A DNA stretch of 50,995 bases from an uncultured Lachnospiraceae bacterium (GTDB lineage: Bacteria; Bacillota; Clostridia; Lachnospirales; Lachnospiraceae). Made by a program: the position numbers and the translations under genes. The notes beneath the pieces were generated by a model that made no database searches, was not told the DNA's origin, and saw only the letters and a list, made by a program, of their open reading frames with translations. Positions 6,279 through 50,845 of this stretch are shown piece after piece; the first letter of the stretch is position 1; the number at the start of each line of letters is the position of its first letter. Where the stretch lies: positions 1 to 50,995 of the forward strand of contig ONNQ01000022.1 in assembly GCA_900319245.1 (NCBI GenBank), given 5' to 3'.

Positions 6279-7451
6279 ATGAAGAACAGATTATTCATTT
6301 CATTAGGTCTTGCAGCAGCACTGATGACAGCGGGATGTGCCGGGAAAAATGCCGGACAGGCGCAGCCGGAAGAAGCGCCGGCAGCGGAGACCGTGCAGAC
6401 TACAGAAAATACAGAAAACGCAGAGAATGCCGGCACGCAGGATGAATCTATAGAGGCGGAGCCGATCACTGATAATACCGATGGCAGTACAGAAGAAGTC
6501 CCTGTCGAAGCGGAGGATGTGAATGAGGCGGCAGCTCCCGTCGATTATTCGGACGAGAACAATTGGGCTTACTACGGAATCGGCGAAGACAAGGATGTTG
6601 ACCTGTTTTTGGTCTGTCCCACTGTTGATACGCTGGACGAAGAGAATATGTCCCTCGAAAACGACGTCATGAAGGGATACTTCGAAGGCGCTCTGAACAT
6701 GGAGCGTGGCATTTATGAGGACAGCTGCAGAATGTACGCGCCTTACTACCGGCAGATGGCAATGAACGGTTATTCGCTGGAGGACGCGGAAGAGACAGAA
6801 AGACGCCTTGCATTTGCCTATAAGGATGTATCGGACGCGTTTGCTTACTATATTGAAAATGAAAACGACGGAAGGCCGATCATTCTGGCGGGCTTCTCTC
6901 AGGGAGCGGATATGTGCTACCGCCTGATGGAAGAATATTTTGGCGACAAGGAATTGCAGGATCAGCTCGTAGCCGTCTATGGAATCGGCTGGGCGGTCAC
7001 GGAAGATATGGTGGAAGCGTATCCGCAGATCGTTCCCGCTAATTCTGCAGACGATATCGGCGTTGTGATCAGCTTCGACTGCGAAGCGCCTGAAGTTACG
7101 GAGACGATCGTCAATCCCGCAGGTCAGAAGGCATATTCCATCAACCCTCTCAACTGGAAGACAGACGGGACGCCTGCGGATAAGTCCGAGAATATCGGCG
7201 CCTGCTTCACCAAATACAGCGGAGAGATTAAGAGCGAGGCAGCCGGCCTTTGCGGATGCTATATCGATGAAGAGCGAGGGGCTCTGAAGGTGACGGACGT
7301 AAGCCCCGAGGACTATCCGGCTGTGATCGATATCTTCCCGGATGGCGCGTATCACATCTATGACTATCAGTTCTTCTTCCGGAACCTGCAGGAGAACGTG
7401 CAGCACAGAGTGGAACTGTATATGGAGCAGGTTGCAGCAGCGGCCGCTTAA
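6279..7451 (+). CDS. DUF3089-like alpha/beta-hydrolase lipoprotein
   Basis: A 390-residue exported lipoprotein. The signal peptide ends in a lipobox with the acylated cysteine at residue 20 (MTAGC). A linker rich in Ala, Glu and Thr runs to about residue 85. The folded part contains VDLFLVCPTVDT and the nucleophile elbow GFSQGAD, both seen in DUF3089 proteins, with a C-terminal segment that could supply the catalytic His. Probably an esterase-like enzyme on the outer face of the membrane; the substrate is unknown. The start has a GAAAGGA ribosome-binding site and the gene ends shortly before a strong terminator. Confidence 0.8.
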   Translation: MKNRLFISLGLAAALMTAGCAGKNAGQAQPEEAPAAETVQTTENTENAENAGTQDESIEAEPITDNTDGSTEEVPVEAEDVNEAAAPVDYSDENNWAYYGIGEDKDVDLFLVCPTVDTLDEENMSLENDVMKGYFEGALNMERGIYEDSCRMYAPYYRQMAMNGYSLEDAEETERRLAFAYKDVSDAFAYYIENENDGRPIILAGFSQGADMCYRLMEEYFGDKELQDQLVAVYGIGWAVTEDMVEAYPQIVPANSADDIGVVISFDCEAPEVTETIVNPAGQKAYSINPLNWKTDGTPADKSENIGACFTKYSGEIKSEAAGLCGCYIDEERGALKVTDVSPEDYPAVIDIFPDGAYHIYDYQFFFRNLQENVQHRVELYMEQVAAAAA

Positions 7452-7489
7452 TACAAACAGGTTTAGGTAATACAAAAAGAATTCATGAG

Positions 7490-7520
7490 AAAAGCCTGCC
7501 GCAATGCCGGCAGGCTTTTC
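7490..7520 (+). terminator. Intrinsic terminator of the DUF3089 lipoprotein gene
   Basis: A perfect 12-bp stem (7490-7501 with 7508-7519) with a 6-nt loop and T/A runs on both sides. It lies about 40 nt after the stop codon and could work in both directions. Confidence 0.85.
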
Positions 7521-7551
7521 AATGCAGGAATATAAGGGCGGATCATACTAA

Positions 7552-7584
7552 AAAAGAAGGTGCTGTGAAACAGCACCTTCTTTT
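7552..7584 (-). terminator. Intrinsic terminator of the tRNA-Leu operon
   Basis: A long stem (7552-7566 with 7570-7584), 3-nt loop, A-rich on one side and T-rich on the other. It sits 6 nt beyond the 3' end of tRNA-Leu(AAG) on the minus strand. Confidence 0.85.
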
Positions 7585-7590
7585 CTTACT

Positions 7591-7673
7591 GCGGAAGATG
7601 GGACTTGAACCCACACGGTGTAACCACCACAAGATCCTTAGTCTTGCTCGTCTGCCAGTTCCGACACTTCCGC
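7591..7673 (-). tRNA. tRNA-Leu (anticodon AAG)
   Basis: On the minus strand an 83-nt cloverleaf with acceptor GCGGAAG/CTTCCGC, A73, anticodon loop CTAAGGA (anticodon AAG), a normal class II variable arm and T-arm GTGGG-TTCAAGT-CCCAT. No CCA is encoded. It is the second gene of a two-tRNA operon. Its long variable arm contrasts with the AAG tRNA of the array at 50219. Confidence 0.95.
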
Positions 7674-7705
7674 GTATGATCTGCAAAGAGTTAAATAATG
7701 CAGAT

Positions 7706-7787
7706 GCAGGAGATGGGACTTGAACCCACACTATGTTGCCATAACAGGCACCTGAAGCCTGCGCGTCTGCCATTCCGCCACTCCTGC
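7706..7787 (-). tRNA. tRNA-Leu (anticodon CAG)
   Basis: An 82-nt minus-strand cloverleaf with acceptor GCAGGAG/CTCCTGC, A73, anticodon loop TTCAGGT (anticodon CAG) and a class II variable arm. No encoded CCA. First gene of the operon, about 12 nt from a near-consensus promoter. Confidence 0.95.
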
Positions 7788-7798
7788 GAACGAATGAT

Positions 7799-7827
7799 AT
7801 TGTACATCGGATTAATCATATTGTCAA
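7799..7827 (-). promoter_or_regulatory. Promoter of the tRNA-Leu operon
   Basis: On the minus strand TTGACA (7822-7827), a 17-bp spacer and TACAAT (7799-7804), placed just upstream of tRNA-Leu(CAG). It is a near-perfect housekeeping sigma promoter. The same intergenic region must also serve the divergent lipoprotein gene at 7932. Confidence 0.88.
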
Positions 7828-7931
7828 CGGATAATAAAATTGTGTTATAGTAAAAAGTGGGGGTTTTTAATGGAAATGTAGTTATGATCTAAAATAGACG
7901 AAAGAATGGTAACAAATCGGAGGAGCGAGAA

Positions 7932-9611
7932 ATGAGAAACAGAGTATTGGTGAGCCTCATGTGCGCCTGCACAGTCGCAGCGACAGTTGTCGGCTGCGGA
8001 TCCGGCGCAGGGGGGAATAAAACAGAGGCAGCACAGGCCGAAGCGACCACAGCGGAAGAAGCCGCAGAGGCAGATACGGCGGAAGCACTTGCAGAGGCGC
8101 GAGAGCCCCAGTTCATTACGACGACGACAGCCGCTAATTTTACGGGTGAAAAATATGAGAGTGAGGACGGATGGTCTTGCAGGTATGACGCTGACCTCAT
8201 GGAAGTCAACGAGCGCAGTGATGCGGTGGAATTCATCTATACGGGGGAGAGCAACGGCACCAATAAGCTGATCGTTCGCTATATTCCCAACACATCCACA
8301 GATCTTGCGATTGCGGACGCGCTGATCCAGTACGACGGCGAGAGGATCGAGCGCGGAGAGGGATATTTTGGCGGAAGGACGGATATATGGGCCTTTTACG
8401 CGGATGTGATCCGGAATGGATGGCGCAACACGGTTGGCTTTACGGCAGTCGAGTACAATGAAGGCGTGCTTTTCATCGAGAGAGACCGTTATACGGAGGA
8501 CGACGAGGAGAAGCAGCAGCAGATCACAGATACGATCAACAATACGCTGGGCAGCTTTGAATTCGAGGACTTCGCGCCGCAGGAGGAGTACGACTACATA
8601 CCCGGCAAATATGTGCTGGAGGAGTCCTCGCTGGAAGGAGACGCCGAGAATTACGCGAAGTCTGTACGGTTAAACGCAGATCACACAGGCGAGATCACCA
8701 TACAGGACACGGTGCCGATTATCTGGCTTGCCAGAGACGGACTGATCAAAGAGGACTATGTGGGCGGCGAATCCTACTATTTCTCGATCGAGGGCGAGTA
8801 TCTTTACCTGCAGCAGGACGGAGAATGGATCGAATACCACAAGAAGCTGGGAGCGAACACCGGCGTCGCCAACATGGACGCGTCCGGCAGGGATCCGATG
8901 GCGTTTGCAACGTACGAGAACGAGAACGGATGGCTGGTCTATTATGACAAAAGGCTCTTTCAGGTAAACGAAAGCTATAACGCGGTCGACTTTGTATATG
9001 GGGAATCGGAAGACGATACGGATAAACTGAGATTTTCCTACGAAGAGGACGCGACGACCGACGAGGTGCTCGCGGACATCGAGAGCGATTATGACCACGA
9101 TCAGATCCAGCGCAGCGAGGGGTATTTTGGCGGCGGCCGCGAGGCGTGGGGCTTCACAGTGACAATTACAGAAGACAGCGACGCCGGGCGAAAGAAGATC
9201 TATACAGCGATGGAACACAATGGCGGCGTCCTGCTTGTTGAGAGAACCGCTCATACGTCGGACAGCGAGGAGCAGACCAGGATGGACGCGGCCTTCGAGG
9301 AGATCGCCACCACATTCCTGTTCACAGAGCACGATCAGCCGCAGGAGTATGACTATATTCCCGGCAAATACCTGCTCAATGACAAAATTCTGCAAAAAGA
9401 CGCAAGCAATTATCCGAAGTCGGTCGTCCTTAGAGATAACCATTCCGGCACCATGGGAGATATGGATATTGTCTGGTACGCAAGAGATGGAATCCTCAAG
9501 GAGGATAAGGCGGGCGGAAAGACCTACGATTATCACTTCGAGGGCGATACGCTCTATGTCGACATGGACGGCGAATGGGTCGAGTTTGAGAGAGAAGAAA
9601 CGGACGACTAA
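7932..9611 (+). CDS. Lipoprotein with two tandem copies of an unknown domain
   Basis: A 559-residue lipoprotein: signal peptide with lipobox VVGC (Cys22), an Ala/Glu-rich linker, then two related halves. Each half has a D/NGW segment, a Y-G-E-S segment followed by a K-L strand, an EGYFGG motif and the signature YDYIPGKY, followed by a KSV-x-L-x-x-x-H-x-G repeat near its end. The copies lie at about residues 73-305 and 320-555. I recognise no named family. Acidic composition and membrane anchoring suggest an extracellular binding or envelope role, but nothing identifies a ligand. The ribosome-binding site is GGAGGAG. Confidence 0.8.
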   Translation: MRNRVLVSLMCACTVAATVVGCGSGAGGNKTEAAQAEATTAEEAAEADTAEALAEAREPQFITTTTAANFTGEKYESEDGWSCRYDADLMEVNERSDAVEFIYTGESNGTNKLIVRYIPNTSTDLAIADALIQYDGERIERGEGYFGGRTDIWAFYADVIRNGWRNTVGFTAVEYNEGVLFIERDRYTEDDEEKQQQITDTINNTLGSFEFEDFAPQEEYDYIPGKYVLEESSLEGDAENYAKSVRLNADHTGEITIQDTVPIIWLARDGLIKEDYVGGESYYFSIEGEYLYLQQDGEWIEYHKKLGANTGVANMDASGRDPMAFATYENENGWLVYYDKRLFQVNESYNAVDFVYGESEDDTDKLRFSYEEDATTDEVLADIESDYDHDQIQRSEGYFGGGREAWGFTVTITEDSDAGRKKIYTAMEHNGGVLLVERTAHTSDSEEQTRMDAAFEEIATTFLFTEHDQPQEYDYIPGKYLLNDKILQKDASNYPKSVVLRDNHSGTMGDMDIVWYARDGILKEDKAGGKTYDYHFEGDTLYVDMDGEWVEFEREETDD

Positions 9612-10546: not shown

Positions 10547-11530
10547 ATGGAAGGGATTCGCAATAAGCAGCGCCCATTCAGGCTGCTCAAGTATTTATAT
10601 GAAAACACGGATGAGGAACATCCTGTCACAACGTCGGAGCTGGTGGAGATTTTTAAAGCAGAGGACGCGCATGCGTCGCGAAAGACCGTGAAGGATGATA
10701 TCGACATCCTGACTCAAGAAGGGTTTGATATCATTACGATCCGCAGTACGCAGAACTCATTTTTCCTGGGAGGGCGTACGATGGAAGTTCCGGAGCTCAA
10801 GCTCCTGATCGACGCAGTATCTTCCTGCCGCTTTATTTCGAAAGAAAAGAGTGCGGTTCTGATCGGCAAATTGAAGAAAATGACCAGCAAAGAGCAGGCG
10901 GCAAAACTTACGCGGCACATGTATGTGGCAGACAGGGTCAAAGCAGACAATCACCAGCTGCTTTATATTGTGGATACGATCACGGATGCGATCAACGAGG
11001 GGAACAAGATCCGGTTTCAGTATTTTGACTACAATGCATCCAAGGAGCGGTTCCTGCGTCACGACGGAGCGGAGTACAAGGTGAGTCCCTACGCGCTTTT
11101 ATGGGATGACAATAATTACTACATGTGCGGCTATTCGGATGAGAGGGAAGGGATTACGAACTATCGGGTGGACCGCATGTGCAATACGCACAAACTCGCG
11201 GAGGCGGCGGTACCGCTGCCCGCCGGAATTGATATCGAGGAGTATGTGGAGCACCAGTTCAGGATGTTCCAAGGCGAAGAAGTCGACGTGACGCTGGAAT
11301 GCGAAAACGGTATGATGCGCTATATAATCGACCGGTTCGGCGAGGACGTGGAGACATGGAACATCACGGACGATGCATTTGGGGTGAAGGTCCATGTGAC
11401 GGACAGCCCGACCTTTTACGGATGGGTCTTCTCCTTTGCGGGAAAGGTGAAGATCACGGGACCGGACCGGATCCGGGACAAGTATGGTGAAATGGTGAGT
11501 GCCGCGGCAGAGGGAAACGCTGCGGAATAA
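10547..11530 (+). CDS. WYL-domain transcriptional regulator
   Basis: 327 residues. An N-terminal winged-helix DNA-binding domain (RPFRLLKYLYENT through SRKTVKDDIDILTQEG, residues 7-65) is followed by a linker and a WYL domain with SPYALLWDDNNYYMCGY and the downstream YRVDRM motif. WYL proteins are ligand-responsive regulators, often binding nucleic acids or nucleotides. The target is unknown. It sits 23 nt upstream of the LytTR regulator start, so the three regulatory genes 10547-13617 may form one transcript. Confidence 0.9.
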   Translation: MEGIRNKQRPFRLLKYLYENTDEEHPVTTSELVEIFKAEDAHASRKTVKDDIDILTQEGFDIITIRSTQNSFFLGGRTMEVPELKLLIDAVSSCRFISKEKSAVLIGKLKKMTSKEQAAKLTRHMYVADRVKADNHQLLYIVDTITDAINEGNKIRFQYFDYNASKERFLRHDGAEYKVSPYALLWDDNNYYMCGYSDEREGITNYRVDRMCNTHKLAEAAVPLPAGIDIEEYVEHQFRMFQGEEVDVTLECENGMMRYIIDRFGEDVETWNITDDAFGVKVHVTDSPTFYGWVFSFAGKVKITGPDRIRDKYGEMVSAAAEGNAAE

Positions 11531-11553
11531 ACTGCGCGGGGGAGGCAGTGGAC

Positions 11554-12255
11554 ATGCTGCATATAGCAATTGTAGAAGATGAAGAGAAATATGCGAAGGA
11601 GCTGGAGGAATACATTCACCGCTATGGGGCGGAGACGTCGCGCCAGTTCAAAGTCACGCATTTTCAGGACGGCGAGGACCTGGTGGAGAGCTACAGCGGC
11701 GAATTTGACCTGCTGCTGATGGACATTCAGATGCAGTTTATGGATGGCATGACCGCAGCCGAGAAGATCCGCGAGCACGATCAGCAGGTGCAGATCATCT
11801 TTATCACCAACCGGAATGATTATGCGATCCGCGGCTACGAAGTAGATGCGCTCGATTATGTCTTAAAGCCTGTCAGCTATTATATTTTTGCCAAAAAACT
11901 GGACAAAGCCCTGTCCAGGATCGCGAACAAAAAGAGCGAGACGATCACGATCAGCACAAAGACCGGCGTCCGCCTCATTAAGCTGGAGGAGCTGTATTAC
12001 ATTGAGAGCGACGCCCATAACCTGATCTATCACACGGCAAAGGGCGCGTTTGTCACCAGGGAGCGCATTAAAGACGCGGAGAAAGCGCTGGAGGGCAAAG
12101 GGTTCTTTCGAAGCAACAAATGCTATCTGGTAAACCTGCAGCACGTAGACGGCATCAGTGACGGCTGCTGTGAGATCCATGGGGAGAAGCTCTTGATCAG
12201 CCGGGCAAGGCGCGGGGAGTTCATGGAGGCGCTGTCCAGACAGATGGGCGGCTGA
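11554..12255 (+). CDS. LytTR family response regulator
   Basis: 233 residues: a receiver domain with acidic pocket EDE (8-10), phospho-acceptor Asp57 in LLLMDIQM and the late Lys in LKPVSY, then a LytTR DNA-binding domain (about 130-230) with IESDAHNLIYH and FFRSNKCYLVNL. I chose the ATG at 11554 since GGAGG lies 8 nt upstream; the GTG at 11548 is too close to it. Partner of the GHKL kinase that starts 29 nt downstream, as in AgrAC-like systems controlling peptide or envelope responses. Confidence 0.92.
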   Translation: MLHIAIVEDEEKYAKELEEYIHRYGAETSRQFKVTHFQDGEDLVESYSGEFDLLLMDIQMQFMDGMTAAEKIREHDQQVQIIFITNRNDYAIRGYEVDALDYVLKPVSYYIFAKKLDKALSRIANKKSETITISTKTGVRLIKLEELYYIESDAHNLIYHTAKGAFVTRERIKDAEKALEGKGFFRSNKCYLVNLQHVDGISDGCCEIHGEKLLISRARRGEFMEALSRQMGG

Positions 12256-12283
12256 CACGAAAGGATCGGATCCGGGGGAAACG

Positions 12284-13617
12284 ATGAGTACGATTGCCAC
12301 AACATTTCCTGACATACCAAGACTCTATACAGGTATTGCGGAATGGGCGTCCTGTATGCTTTTTATATGCTATATGCCGCGCAGGCGCAGCAAAACCATG
12401 ACCGCCGCGATCGCTGCGGTGTTTCTTCTGGTGCAGTGTCTGTTCTTAATTGTGACTGCCAAGGTTCCTTTGTTTTTCTGGATTCCCTGCATGCTGACGG
12501 CGTTTGGCCTGATGGTTGTATTTCTCGCCATTTGTATGGAGTACCCCCTGCACATCAGCCTCTACTATGCGCTGCTTGCGCTGGTTGCGGCAGAGTTTAT
12601 GGCGTCGCTCGGGTGGCAGATCGTGCGGGAGGTCTACAGGCACTGGGGCAGGACAAATTGGCTGATAGAGGCGATTCTGATGGCGGTCACCTATCTGCTG
12701 GTCCTTGCCTCCATTGGCTGGCTTGAAAAAAGGACGCTGGAGGCACAGCTGGAAGTCCGCGTGCAGTGGGAGGATCTGATCCCGCCTTTGATCGTCGTCG
12801 TCGCGACCTTTTCCATCAGCAATCTGGGTTTTGCCCTCAATATACTGGGAAAGGGCATGACGGGAGACGCCGACCTGTTCAACACACGAACACTGATCGA
12901 TCTGGGCGGACTGACGCTTCTGTACGCGATCCGTTTACGACTGATCGGCATACAGGCGCAGCGCGAGCTGGAGCGCATCCAGACCATTCTCAACGCCCAG
13001 TATGAAAAATACAGAAACGCAAGAGAAGCCATCGACATGGTCAACCTCAAGTATCATGACTTAAAGCACCAGATCGTAGGGCTCCGTGCGGAAATGGATC
13101 CGGAGAAGCGAAGCCAGACGCTGGCCGAGATGGAGGCGCAGCTGGAAGAGTACAAGCCGGAGCGGCAGACGGGCAATCCGGTCCTGGACGCCATCCTGTC
13201 CGGTAAAGAGGCGCAGATCCGGGGCCTTGGGATCGCGTTTACCTGCGTGGCGGATGGGGCGCTTCTTTCGCCCATGCACGTGGTGGATATCTGCTCCATC
13301 TTCGGAAACGCGCTGGAAAACGCGATCGAATGTGAAGCGACTGTGCAGGAACGAGGCAGGCGGTGGATCCACATGGTCGTAACGGAAAAGAAAGGATTTG
13401 TGTTTGCCGAAATCTCCAACTATTGCGAAGGGGAGCTCCTTATGAAAGACGGGATGCCTGTGACGTCAAAAAGGACAGGGGACTGCACGGATATGGCGTG
13501 CGCAGCATCGGATATACCGCCCGAAAATATGGGGGAACGGCCACGTTTGAGAAGGGACCGGAGCAGTTTACGGTCCGGATCCTGCTCCCGAGCCCGGTCT
13601 CGCAGAGCACCCGGTAG
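12284..13617 (+). pseudogene. GHKL sensor histidine kinase with a frameshift in the ATPase domain
   Basis: The N-terminus has about six membrane helices (to residue 225), then a coiled segment and the His motif KYHDLKHQ, followed by the ATPase N-box IFGNALENAIEC. After PVTSK the frame changes: the 0 frame runs on into Arg/Ser-rich nonsense to 13678, while the frame one base back continues with DRGLHGYGVRSI (G-box) and KYGGTATFEKGPEQFTVRILLP and stops at 13617. The shift lies at the A5 run 13468-13472, and one extra A would restore the kinase. It could be a real inactivating deletion or a homopolymer sequencing error. No valid -1 slippery heptamer in phase is present. Confidence 0.85.
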
Positions 13618-28687: not shown

Positions 28688-28740
28688 AAGAAATGAAAAC
28701 AATTGAATGATACAATTGTAAGAAACAATTAAATGAAGAA

Positions 28741-28816
28741 CTTATCCGGTTACTGACGGGTTTGTGGAAATTACCACAGGGGAGCCGGATAAAGGAAAAG
28801 TCGACCGTCTGGGCAG
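28741..28816 (+). promoter_or_regulatory. ZTP/ZMP riboswitch aptamer (pfl motif)
   Basis: TTATCCGG (28742-28749) pairs perfectly with CCGGATAA (28785-28792). Inside, TGTGG/CCACA forms the second helix with the conserved ACTGACGG before it and GGGGAG after it. The 3' block CGACCGTCTGGGCA (28802-28815) is the conserved pfl element, and its CCGT can form the pseudoknot with ACGG at 28756-28759. ZTP signals shortage of 10-formyl-tetrahydrofolate, so control of fhs fits the known regulon. Confidence 0.93.
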
Positions 28817-28860
28817 TAGTTGGTAGTGTACAAGTAAATACTATCGGTACTGCCCTTTAT
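28811..28860 (+). terminator. Expression-platform terminator of the ZTP riboswitch
   Basis: GGGCAGT (28811-28817) pairs with ACTGCCC (28850-28856), with an inner TAGT/ACTA stem, followed by TTTAT. The 5' arm reuses the GGGC of the aptamer's conserved block, so ligand-bound aptamer and terminator exclude each other. This predicts an ON switch for fhs. Confidence 0.8.
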
Positions 28861-49512: not shown

Positions 49513-49596
49513 TCGACATGGTGGGAATCGAACCCACAATGGCCTATGGCCGCTGGCTTCTGAGACCAGCCTGTCTTCCAGTTGCAGCACATGCCG
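49513..49596 (-). tRNA. tRNA-Leu (anticodon CAG), array position 11
   Basis: 84 nt, acceptor CGGCATG/CATGTCG, so the first pair is C1-G72 rather than the usual G1-C72 and one wobble follows. Anticodon loop CTCAGAA (CAG), variable arm GGCC-ATA-GGCC, T-arm GTGGG-TTCGATT-CCCAC, A73. Confidence 0.85.
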
Positions 49597-49609
49597 ATAT
49601 TATTATGAG

Positions 49610-49696
49610 CGCCGCTCCCGGGTCCCGACCCCGGATGCCGGACGAGCCGGCCCCTGCTTAGCAGGCAGGTGCATTTGCCAATTCTGCCAAAGCGGC
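49610..49696 (-). tRNA. tRNA-Ser (anticodon GCT), array position 10
   Basis: 87 nt, acceptor GCCGCTT/GAGCGGC, anticodon loop CTGCTAA (GCT), long variable arm GCCGG/CCGGC, G73 as usual for serine. The T-loop reads GTCGGGA, with G instead of the nearly invariant T at position 54. Confidence 0.85.
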
Positions 49697-49703
49697 TTAA
49701 TAG

Positions 49704-49788
49704 CGGGGATGGAGGGATTCGAACCCCCAGACCCTTTCGGATCACCTGTTTTCGGGACAGGCTGCCTGCTCGATTAGCACACATCCCC
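49704..49788 (-). tRNA. tRNA-Ser (anticodon CGA), array position 9
   Basis: 85 nt, acceptor GGGGATG/CATCCCC, anticodon loop CCCGAAA (CGA), variable arm with GATCC-GAAA-GGGTC, T-loop TTCGAAT, G73. Position 33 is C instead of the almost universal U, which should affect the anticodon turn. Confidence 0.85.
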
Positions 49789-49793
49789 ATAAG

Positions 49794-49879
49794 CGCCGCA
49801 CACAGGAGTCGAACCTGCAAGCCGGTATTGCCGGCCCACTGTCTTCCAGGCAGCTCCTCCACCGTTGAGGGACTACGGC
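49794..49879 (-). tRNA. tRNA-Ser (anticodon GGA), array position 8
   Basis: 86 nt, acceptor GCCGTAG/GTGCGGC (one mismatch at 7-66), anticodon loop CTGGAAG (GGA) on a stem with a C-A mismatch next to the loop, variable arm GCCGG/CCGGC, T-loop TTCGACT, G73. Confidence 0.82.
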
Positions 49880-49885
49880 ATAAAG

Positions 49886-49968
49886 TCGGCAGAGTAGGAC
49901 TCGAACCTACAGGCCCGAGGGCGACGGTTTTACAGACCGCTTGCTTCATCCGGTTTGCATATCTGCCG
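49886..49968 (-). tRNA. tRNA-Tyr (anticodon GTA), array position 7
   Basis: 83 nt, acceptor CGGCAGA/TCTGCCG, anticodon loop CTGTAAA (GTA), class II variable arm GCCC/GGGC, T-loop TTCGAGT, A73. C1-G72 is the archaeal/eukaryal arrangement for tRNA-Tyr; bacterial ones normally have G1-C72. Confidence 0.87.
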
Positions 49969-49980
49969 ATATTGTATGAG

Positions 49981-50067
49981 CGCTGTGAGAGGGATTTGAA
50001 CCCCCAGTCCGCTTTCGCGGATCACCGGTTTTCAAGACCGGCCCGGTACCATTTGCGGCATCACAGC
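49981..50067 (-). tRNA. tRNA-Ser (anticodon TGA), array position 6
   Basis: 87 nt, acceptor GCTGTGA/TCACAGC, anticodon loop CTTGAAA (TGA), long variable arm with TCCGC-GAAA-GCGGA, T-loop TTCAAAT, G73. The most regular tRNA of the array. Confidence 0.92.
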
Positions 50068-50071
50068 ATAG

Positions 50072-50133
50072 TGTCCAGGACGGGATTCGAACCCGCAAGC
50101 CCCAAAGGGCACATGATCCTGAGTCATGCCCGT
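50072..50133 (-). pseudogene. 5'-truncated tRNA-Leu (anticodon CAG), array position 5
   Basis: Only the anticodon arm (CATGA-CTCAGGA-TCATG), a class II variable arm (GCCC-TTT-GGGGC), the T-arm and the 3' acceptor strand CCTGGAC with A73 are present. The acceptor 5' strand and D-arm are missing: the preceding tRNA ends directly before it at 50134. It cannot fold a full cloverleaf by itself. Confidence 0.75.
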
Positions 50134-50206
50134 TACAGGAGAAGGGACTCGAACCCTCAAAACACCGCTTTTGAGGCGGGTACGTATTCCATTCCGTCAC
50201 TCCTGC
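50134..50206 (-). tRNA. tRNA-Leu (anticodon CAA) with short variable loop, array position 4
   Basis: 73 nt. Acceptor GCAGGAG/CTCCTGT (first pair G-U), D-arm like tRNA-Leu (CGGAATGG), anticodon loop CTCAAAA (CAA), then only about 5 nt before T-arm GAGGG-TTCGAGT-CCCTT; A73. It shares the acceptor and D-arm start with the housekeeping tRNA-Leu(CAG) at 7706 but lacks the long variable arm that bacterial tRNA-Leu normally has. Confidence 0.82.
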
Positions 50207-50218
50207 AAAATATATAAG

Positions 50219-50293
50219 TACCTCTGGCGGGATTCGAACCCGCAAAAGCCCGGATCCTTAGCCCGGCGCATATTCCAGTTCTGCTACAGAGGC
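50219..50293 (-). tRNA. tRNA-Leu (anticodon AAG) with short variable loop, array position 3
   Basis: 75 nt. Acceptor GCCTCTG/CAGAGGT (first pair G-U), anticodon loop CTAAGGA (AAG), variable loop of about 6 nt, T-arm GCGGG-TTCGAAT-CCCGC, A73. Same anticodon as the class II gene at 7591 but a class I-sized body. Confidence 0.82.
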
Positions 50294-50347
50294 ATATTCT
50301 GTTTTGGTTTCTCAGCCATAAAGCGAGAATGCGGGTATACCGCACAG

Positions 50348-50421
50348 TGCTTCCGAAGGGAGTCGAACCCTCACTGAGCCGGGTTTAAACCGGTTTCCTC
50401 TTCCAATTGGGATACGGGAGC
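50348..50421 (-). tRNA. tRNA-Leu (anticodon TAA) with short variable loop, array position 2
   Basis: 74 nt. Acceptor GCTCCCG/CGGAAGC with a C4-A69 mismatch, anticodon loop TTTAAAC (TAA), variable loop of about 5 nt, T-arm GAGGG-TTCGACT-CCCTT, A73. The anticodon stem-loop is nearly palindromic. Confidence 0.78.
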
Positions 50422-50428
50422 AAAACAG

Positions 50429-50512
50429 TGGGCAGGGAAGGACTCGACCCTTCGGTGTTTCTGATGTAACGGATTTACAGTCCGCCGCCCTCGCCGCTAG
50501 GCATACCTGCCC
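50429..50512 (-). tRNA. tRNA-Tyr (anticodon GTA), array position 1
   Basis: 84 nt. Acceptor GGGCAGG/CCTGCCC, anticodon loop CTGTAAA (GTA), extended but weakly paired variable region, T-arm GAAGG-GTCGAGT-CCTTC with G at position 54, A73. First tRNA of the transcript, starting 10 nt after the attenuator hairpin. Confidence 0.85.
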
Positions 50513-50552
50513 ATAAAAATAACCGCCTGCGCGGAGTGCTCCGTACAGGCGG
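50513..50552 (-). terminator. Attenuator terminator upstream of the tRNA array
   Basis: On the minus strand CCGCCTG pairs with CAGGCGG (7 bp), with an inner CGGA/TCCG stem and GCAC loop, followed by TTATTTTTAT and then directly by tRNA-Tyr. Read-through past it is needed to make any tRNA of the array. Its 5' arm contains CGCC (50548-50551) and CGGAG (50539-50543), which could pair instead with GGCG and CTCCG in the last codons of the leader ORF. Confidence 0.85.
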
Positions 50553-50582
50553 CCTGACAATCGATAAATCATCATGAAAAGT

Positions 50583-50699
50583 CTATTTACGCCATCGTTT
50601 GATCGGAGTATCCTCACACGCCAAAAGGACCTTGCTGCCAAGAAGCAGAAGGGACAGATAGAGAACGTATGAGCTCGATAAAACAGTGTTGCGTGTCAT
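50583..50699 (-). CDS. Leader peptide of the class II tRNA array
   Basis: 38 codons. ATG at 50699 with AAGGA exactly 8 nt upstream. Residues 7-20 read LSSSYVLYLSLLLL and residues 22, 25 and 26 are S, L and L, so 16 of 20 residues at 7-26 are Leu, Ser or Tyr. Codons used are TTA, TTG, CTC, CTT and CTG for Leu, TCA, TCC, TCG and AGC for Ser, and TAC and TAT for Tyr. Each array anticodon (TAA, CAA, AAG, CAG, TGA, GGA, CGA, GCT, GTA) has its cognate codon; the unread CTA is absent. The tail is polar (EDTPIKRWRK). It could also be a small membrane peptide by composition, but the codon match and the terminator 30 nt after the stop favour a regulatory leader. Confidence 0.85.
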   Translation of the reverse strand: MTRNTVLSSSYVLYLSLLLLGSKVLLACEDTPIKRWRK

Positions 50700-50768
50700 A
50701 GTCGTGATCCTTTTCCTTTCGCAGATTTCTGAGTGTGGTTTATGGGATTTCTCTCTTGCCATATAAAC

Positions 50769-50797
50769 AATATACGGCGGATGAGGGTGGTTGTCAT
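50769..50797 (-). promoter_or_regulatory. Promoter of the leader and tRNA array
   Basis: On the minus strand ATGACA (50792-50797), 17-bp spacer, TATATT (50769-50774); each box differs from consensus by one base. The predicted start near 50762 gives a leader RNA of about 60 nt before the ORF. Confidence 0.8.
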
Positions 50798-50813
50798 TCT
50801 ACCTATAGTATAA

Positions 50814-50845
50814 ACCAAGCTGGCCTAAAATATGGCCAGCTTGGT
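50814..50845. terminator. Perfect inverted repeat upstream of the array promoter
   Basis: A 12-bp perfect stem (50814-50825 with 50834-50845) with an 8-nt loop. On the minus strand TTTAT follows, so it may be a terminator of a gene to the right of the window. It lies 17 bp upstream of the array promoter and could instead be an operator. Confidence 0.55.

Follow-up and report, generated by a model that had tools for sequence, protein, structure and literature searches.

Why would a bacterium place a short open reading frame (ORF) and a transcription terminator in front of a cluster of tRNA genes that serve only three amino acids? The question is raised by one end of contig ONNQ01000022.1 (assembly GCA_900319245.1) from an uncultured Lachnospiraceae bacterium, whose 50,995 nucleotides are the whole stretch of DNA analysed here and are called the window. 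Ten tRNA genes, all for Leu, Ser, or Tyr, stand there behind a 38-codon leader ORF; these three are the bacterial class II tRNAs, which have a long variable arm. From comparisons with related loci, we consider with good confidence that the leader, terminator, and array form a transcription attenuator that senses scarce charged class II tRNAs and governs a foreign, probably mobile set of replacement tRNAs.

Leader, terminator, and tRNA array of the window

All elements of the locus lie on the minus strand and follow one another in the direction of transcription as a promoter region (50814–50769), a ribosome-binding site, the leader ORF (50699–50583), a spacer of 29 nt, an intrinsic terminator (50553–50514), and the tRNA genes (50512–49512). 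The ORF, MTRNTVLSSSYVLYLSLLLLGSKVLLACEDTPIKRWRK (38 codons and the stop codon TAG), is preceded by the strong ribosome-binding site GAAAGGAAAAGGA and has homologous leaders in eight other genomes of the genus (E 4e-18 to 2e-5); this conservation suggests that it is translated. Codons 7–26 (50622–50681), the putative sensor core, include 16 Leu, Ser, or Tyr codons among 20. The terminator, composed of the hairpin GCCGCCTGTACGGAGCACTCCGCGCAGGCGGT and a T-rich tail (−22.9 kcal/mol), occurs in all 15 aligned leaders; the window's hairpin was absent from the list of a simple terminator/promoter sequence scan. The array called by ARAGORN reads, in transcription order, Tyr-GUA, Leu-UAA, Leu-AAG, Leu-CAA, Ser-UGA, Tyr-GUA, Ser-GGA, Ser-CGA, Ser-GCU, and Leu-CAG, and an apparent 3′ fragment of another class II tRNA gene (approximately 50075–50131) was read from the sequence without an ARAGORN call. 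The promoter, ATGACA-17-TATATT (50769–50797), matches the consensus at 10 of 12 positions and was the best-scoring minus-strand promoter-like site in the scan. The motif TTTATACTATAGGTAGAATGA (50794–50814), present with no mismatch, overlaps the −35 element, is of the inverted-repeat type TTATAC-N5-GTATAA in many relatives, and is a possible operator for a Cro/CI-type regulator. A first-pass annotation made from the letters alone had described the promoter, the ORF with its ribosome-binding site, the terminator, and the ten tRNA genes, all of which we recovered. The locus has the parts of a leader attenuator, namely a short ORF with a ribosome-binding site below a promoter, enriched control codons, and a terminator between the ORF and the genes; the terminator is followed by tRNA genes and not by those of a biosynthetic operon. 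At gathering thresholds, no Rfam family except tRNA matched the locus, and no T-box riboswitch was matched in the window. A ZMP/ZTP riboswitch (RF01750) lies elsewhere in the window (28739–28821).

We compared the leader with random fragments of neighbouring proteins, and none of 20,000 fragments contained a 20-residue stretch with as many Leu, Ser, and Tyr residues. Counting the codons also confirmed that each of the nine distinct anticodons of the array has a codon within codons 7–26 and that the Leu codon CTA is absent there. Random synonymous recodings cover all nine classes in 2.8% of cases and do so without CTA in 2.2%, and the codon-level match is a weaker part of the chance argument than the amino-acid enrichment. 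The avoidance of CTA (0 of 124 Leu codons vs. a background of 3%) is only suggestive.

Window-type leaders in related genomes

Genomes and the loci extracted for comparison carry the labels G and L, respectively. A peptide search of 146 relatives (E ≤ 2e-5) gave 13 places in nine genomes of a single genus, the window's own included; 12 of these places have a promoter and terminator, and the thirteenth (G014) is cut off by a contig end. A pattern scan of a named genome collection marked 14 contigs, three of which were read and proved to be two leaders and one chance match, and the carriers were uncultured Lachnospiraceae, Eubacteriales, and Clostridiales assemblies and Sarcina sp. DSM 11001. 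Among the viral contigs, one of three pattern matches was genuine (L092). The collection of window-type leaders comprises 15 distinct sequences. Class II tRNAs were called behind 14 of them, and the first units there hold 88 called tRNAs, every one of which (88/88) is Leu, Ser, or Tyr; no tRNA was called behind the fifteenth, L073. The best 20-residue windows of all 15 leaders contain 13–16 Leu, Ser, or Tyr residues, a content equalled by 0–8 of 20,000 fragments. The leader of L111, from another genus, is MITITRANMLSSLYSLSYSLLYLSNKVNFVREKAPNTYAWLK and has 15 consecutive Leu, Ser, or Tyr codons in a different order; its composition is retained and its sequence is not.

No blastn match to the leader region was found in the plasmid and phage record collections. 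Pattern or profile matches at L085, L090, L091, L109, and L110, behind which no tRNAs were called, were set aside as unsupported, as were L162, L163, and L165, in which no leader was seen; search matches in G285, G247, G210, G345, and G367 lie outside the loci examined. Five loci (L059, L064, L071, L072, and L107) are degenerate relatives that have lost the sensor codons or ORF with the terminator kept, have lost both, or are frameshifted. In L061, two ORFs that on reading resemble a transposase and an ATPase partner (7121–9483) split the first Tyr tRNA from the remaining class II array.

Second leaders and class I arrays

The window locus is one half of a larger system, which joins a class II unit to a mainly class I unit with a second leader. 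In L061, L062, L063, L092, and L106, the class II unit is followed by a second unit with a similar promoter, an ORF of 55–56 codons, and a terminator, and the arrays of these second units hold 6 to 22 called tRNAs, all of class I except one called Ser in L063. Second leaders are also carried by L060 and L073 (ORFs at L061 rev 6134, L062 7374, L063 7180, L060 rev 657, L073 2621, and L092 4964–5131, and in L106). A gene for a DUF2828/DUF7788 protein, which we take to be TROVE-like, lies within the class I tRNA array of L106 (1374–2843). Leader-2-like peptides were considered as lists of all amino acids and rejected as such: three reach 20 of 20, as do 3.7–4.1% of random fragments.

In the window's genome, the assembly of which is 87% complete, we found neither a close regulator (best match E 4e-5) nor a leader 2, and this class II unit may therefore act alone or be a remnant. 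The same genome holds another array of 12 class I tRNAs (L001, G000:C33:21500-26000), where the motif search found no promoter motif.

Match between leaders and arrays

The first-pass annotation had limited its proposal to class II tRNAs and three amino acids. This scope holds for the window and is too narrow for the system, which is wider than class II: the same architecture, with other codons, also precedes class I or mixed arrays and RtcB genes. In genus g256, 39 leader places (L197–L235) in 32 of 79 genomes stand before mixed arrays, with a named tRNA behind 32 of the 39.

To each unit we assigned a score, the excess of the unit's own amino acids among the residues before the antiterminator strand, and permuted the leaders between families. 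We assembled 17 units, kept 11 as distinct families, and excluded six near relatives (L106, L092, L231, L209, L214, and L112); L160, L161, and L157b had first been noticed because they apparently matched. The mean z of the 11 families was 2.47 vs. 0.70 when permuted, and none of 200,000 permutations was as high. Permutations equal to the observed match numbered 30 in 200,000 without the two class II families, 23 for the eight families with at least three tRNAs, 1,326 for the six of these eight that are not class II, and 2 for the ten families without L157b. Two array loci found later by the motif alone gave z values of 4.1 (L252, rank 1 of 12) and 3.0 (L247, rank 2 of 12). In L199, a stretch of 24 residues chosen by eye, NYCLYSESYESSLQSKSEWMFNFM, contains all 11 amino acids of the array (Ser, Trp, Leu, Glu, Tyr, Gln, Cys, Phe, Lys, Asn, and Met) and none of the other nine; by the rule of the permutation test, 23 of 26 residues fit. 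Behind an unrelated leader, MIRNFHVIGLFAELTEALYLEYKGLVC..., stand tRNAs for Leu, Leu, Tyr, Leu, and Glu. At the level of sequence, these results show that leader content tracks the tRNAs of its own unit across unrelated leaders.

Possible alternative pairing with the terminator

In the majority of the other families, the codons that follow the core can pair with the 5′ arm of the terminator, as in a classical antiterminator. In regards to the g256 leaders, these codons (UCAUUUAAGG-A-UAGGC) pair with the 5′ arm and loop in 94.6% of 350 cells vs. 29–47% when slid, and four cells are changed on both sides; A5 holds 25 of the 33 distinct g256 segments. Leader 2 and the RtcB leaders have a comparable alternative pairing of different sequence. 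The pairing ranked in the best 5% of dinucleotide shuffles for 16 of 22 leader-2-like, 7 of 8 g256, and 2 of 2 f8 leaders, five g256 places occurring in both the leader-2-like and the g256 groups.

In regards to the window-type leaders, the proposed 5′ strand (GCGTG, GAG, and CTCCG; 50604–50621, minus strand) lies within the ORF, and the 3′ strand (CGGAG and CTCCGCGC; 50529–50543, minus strand) comprises the terminator loop and the start of the 3′ arm. These strands pair in 96.9% of 195 cells over the 15 leaders vs. 32–63% when slid. Minimum free energy folding was tried as a means of revealing this antiterminator and was abandoned; the terminator formed in all 13 of the 15 sequences that were folded.

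Promoter motif, regulator, and RNA repair genes

Leader-terminator units precede tRNA arrays, RtcB genes, or Cro/CI-type regulator genes across the order and in viral contigs, as judged by comparison. A Cro/CI-type regulator gene was read in L061, L062, L092, L106, L108, and L111, and the L061 protein matches HTH_3. When the regulator was used as a query, 24 of the 295 genomes searched in the order matched at E ≤ 1e-18, and 11 viral loci were also found; tRNAs lie near 10 of the 30 genome loci. We chose 13 sites from the motif list by eye; downstream of the promoter motif, each has an ORF of 43–52 codons and a hairpin with a T tail. With up to four mismatches allowed, the motif precedes 75 of the 76 leader entries, among which five places are entered twice, vs. 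25 of 1,520 shuffled upstream sequences; the count is partly circular because some leaders were collected through the motif. A scan with the motif only gave 11 matches in 10 of 392 genomes and none with the reversed pattern; four matches were known and seven were new. Among the new loci, L247, L248, L252, and L253 have a leader, a terminator, and, by reading, a regulator; in L248 and L253, these elements precede ABC-transporter-like genes (by reading) and not tRNAs.

Several units are associated with RNA repair genes. In L108 (1737–3515), where no tRNA was called, the leader is followed by the regulator and then by RtcB. In the viral contig L117 (2264–3762; Pfam E 5.4e-57), RtcB comes directly after the leader, and reading of the sequence gives the same order for L118 and L119. 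In L157 (6635–8549), a Lys tRNA precedes RtcB (E 1.3e-55), and AAA_33 kinase-like and Thg1 genes lie between two leader units of the operon (11209–12428), which suggests an RNA repair cassette.

Origin of the array

We compared nine of the ten array tRNAs with fetched host tRNAs of the same anticodon. The identities were 51–66%, which indicates that the array is probably foreign and was acquired rather than duplicated. In its sequence, the array fits a tRNA array of a mobile element, being a dense cluster unlike the host's own tRNAs, and it is probably mobile. One genome (G028) has three array-bearing contigs. The missing encoded CCA was dismissed as a difference between array and host, 29 of 30 fetched host genes also being without CCA.

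Discussion

Given the anatomy, its conservation, the match between leaders and arrays, and the possible alternative pairing in most other families, as established by sequence comparison, the attenuator would work as follows. Polymerase would start at the conserved promoter, possibly under the control of the linked Cro/CI-type regulator, and a ribosome would translate the leader. When charged Leu-, Ser-, and Tyr-tRNAs are plentiful, the ribosome would reach the stop codon and cover the 3′ part of the ORF, and the terminator would form. When one of the listed tRNAs is scarce, the ribosome would stall in codons 7–26, the codons downstream would pair with the terminator, and polymerase would read through and produce the missing tRNAs. 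Cleavage or loss of tRNA is the most likely trigger; it is likelier than a lack of amino acids because the product is tRNA and because RtcB, Thg1, or DUF2828 genes lie near some units.

Several results weigh against this mechanism. The antiterminator is its weakest link for the window itself and is unproven there: the window-type pairing shows no excess over shuffled columns and no excess covariation, and it fails to outperform shuffles in 13 of 14 single sequences. The search for homologous arrays, which the first-pass annotation had offered as a check, had a mainly positive outcome in the 15 distinct leaders, another genus included, and also returned four genomes without an intact ORF. The class II arrays of G044 and G035 retain the terminator and lack sensor codons, that of G043 has neither, and the leader ORF of G350 is frameshifted; in addition, a class I array in G033 has the motif and terminator and no ORF. 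Coverage of the codon classes varies among leaders from 6 to 9 of 9, and the diversity of the leader-2-like peptides is mostly ordinary, being equalled by 3.7–63% of random fragments. Two class I leaders match their arrays weakly (z 0.2 and 1.0), and roughly half of all residues, or more, belong to the amino acids of their tRNA sets. Within g256, the ties of single residues are loose: both distinct cores before Arg arrays contain Arg, as do 6 of 17 cores without Arg seen, and the Arg tie vanishes with a slice two residues longer because a conserved Arg follows. No named tRNA stands behind 7 of the 39 g256 leaders. Three of the seven new motif loci have no leader; in L249 the motif precedes tRNA-Arg and tRNA-Tyr, and L250 and L251 have neither a leader nor a tRNA array. 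We also observed that five g256 leaders (L226, L227, L228, L232, and L235) are a variant rich in Lys, Phe, and Ser, with no named tRNA in the stretch behind.

The same body of evidence bears on the other ways in which the locus may be explained. Leaders in front of RtcB or transporter-like genes, near which no tRNA was called (L108, L117, L119, L248, and L253), together with the mostly ordinary composition of leader-2-like peptides, favour a sensor that responds generally to ribosomes that are stalled or slow, for example under antibiotics, in which the Leu, Ser, and Tyr content would be incidental; PA5471.1 of Pseudomonas is, in the part of the account available, such a case (PMC12057347). 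We regard such a sensor as unlikely, since leaders agree in content with the tRNAs of their own units across 11 families and in two later loci and since Leu/Ser/Tyr runs recur in a different order in another genus. An amino-acid starvation sensor that responds to uncharged tRNA, as in the trp, leu, and his operons, with some role in starvation for the extra tRNAs, would share the anatomy of biosynthetic attenuators. It is a little less likely again, because extra tRNA cannot relieve a shortage of amino acids, the amino acids monitored vary with tRNA content and number up to 11, and RtcB, Thg1, or DUF2828 genes lie beside some units.

The ORF may instead encode a small functional peptide, for example in the membrane, with the array carried along by a mobile element as an ordinary passenger; in favour of this, the leader peptide of the window is hydrophobic, and tRNA arrays are known in mobile elements from the available text of PMC5966550. 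However, position, promoter, terminator, and codon match recur in families without evident shared peptide sequence, and the C-terminal codons can pair with the terminator, so that we hold this explanation to be very improbable. Single short ORFs are weak evidence, and an open frame may lie beside a tRNA cluster by chance; this is the least probable explanation of all and is already refuted by the conservation of the ORF with its ribosome-binding site and terminator over many genomes. The conserved codon-matched leaders and terminators support an attenuator of replacement tRNAs, as the first-pass annotation had read the locus when it proposed that the ORF senses the supply of charged class II tRNAs and that attenuation controls a reserve set of them.

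The attenuators of the trp, leu, and his operons have a leader ORF with control codons, a stall site before the antiterminator strand, and an intrinsic terminator; the ORF, its control codons, and the terminator have counterparts in the present units, for which a stall site before an antiterminator strand is proposed. These units differ in that the output is tRNA or RNA repair, several amino acids are monitored, and the control codons tend to match the downstream tRNAs. T-box riboswitches likewise sense uncharged tRNA and prevent termination; their sensor is an RNA aptamer, whereas a translated ORF would serve here. PA5471.1 is a leader peptide proposed to attenuate armZ (PA5471, an RtcB-like ligase) of Pseudomonas aeruginosa through stalled ribosomes (PMC12057347). 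Leader peptide, proposed mode of attenuation, and RNA ligase output are shared with our units. As far as the available text of that source goes, PA5471.1 is tied to ribosome-targeting antibiotics and no tRNA array or match between codons and tRNAs is described; the comparison made here is one of design. An RNA repair operon with RtcB output is also regulated by damaged tRNAs through RtcR, an activator with a CARF-like domain, according to the available part of PMC7790460; leader attenuators and a Cro/CI-type protein occur here in place of RtcR, for which no search was made. Dense foreign tRNA arrays like the present ones are described in phages, plasmids, and chromosomes (PMC5966550 and PMC10264068, both available in part). 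In one mycobacterial array group, an XRE regulator and HNH genes occur in about 87% of arrays according to these array sources, and one proposal for phage tRNAs is that they make up for tRNAs that host nucleases have cleaved (PMC10264068). In contrast to our units, the available text of PMC5966550 contains none of the words leader, attenuat, and promoter, and that of PMC10264068 contains neither leader nor transcription. In full-text literature searches, judged by titles and abstract openings and with most subscription papers and the bioRxiv preprints outside their coverage, no paper on leader attenuators for tRNA arrays came up. The first-pass annotation knew of no described system like this one; PA5471.1, the armZ leader, is a partial precedent in the available part of PMC12057347.

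With rather less confidence than for the window, we think it probable that self-matched attenuators of this kind are widespread. Each leader would list the tRNAs encoded behind it and would be edited as the array gains or loses tRNAs, so that the loss of any one tRNA, caused for instance by a toxin or a defence nuclease, would switch on its own replacement, often together with RNA repair. If this is true, mobile elements and phages carry a closed feedback loop for tRNA supply, which would be an unusually direct way of sensing the loss of individual tRNAs. The large foreign tRNA arrays of some bacteria and viruses would be explained as a reserve that is opened only when ribosomes stall at the matching codons. 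The purpose of tRNA arrays, a long-standing question, becomes testable with simple reporters, and the arrays would be linked to RNA repair of the RtcB type. The g256 leaders are good material for a formal study of coevolution between leaders and arrays. The leaders themselves would be tRNA sensors that can be read from sequence, each predicting the tRNAs that its carrier expects to lose.

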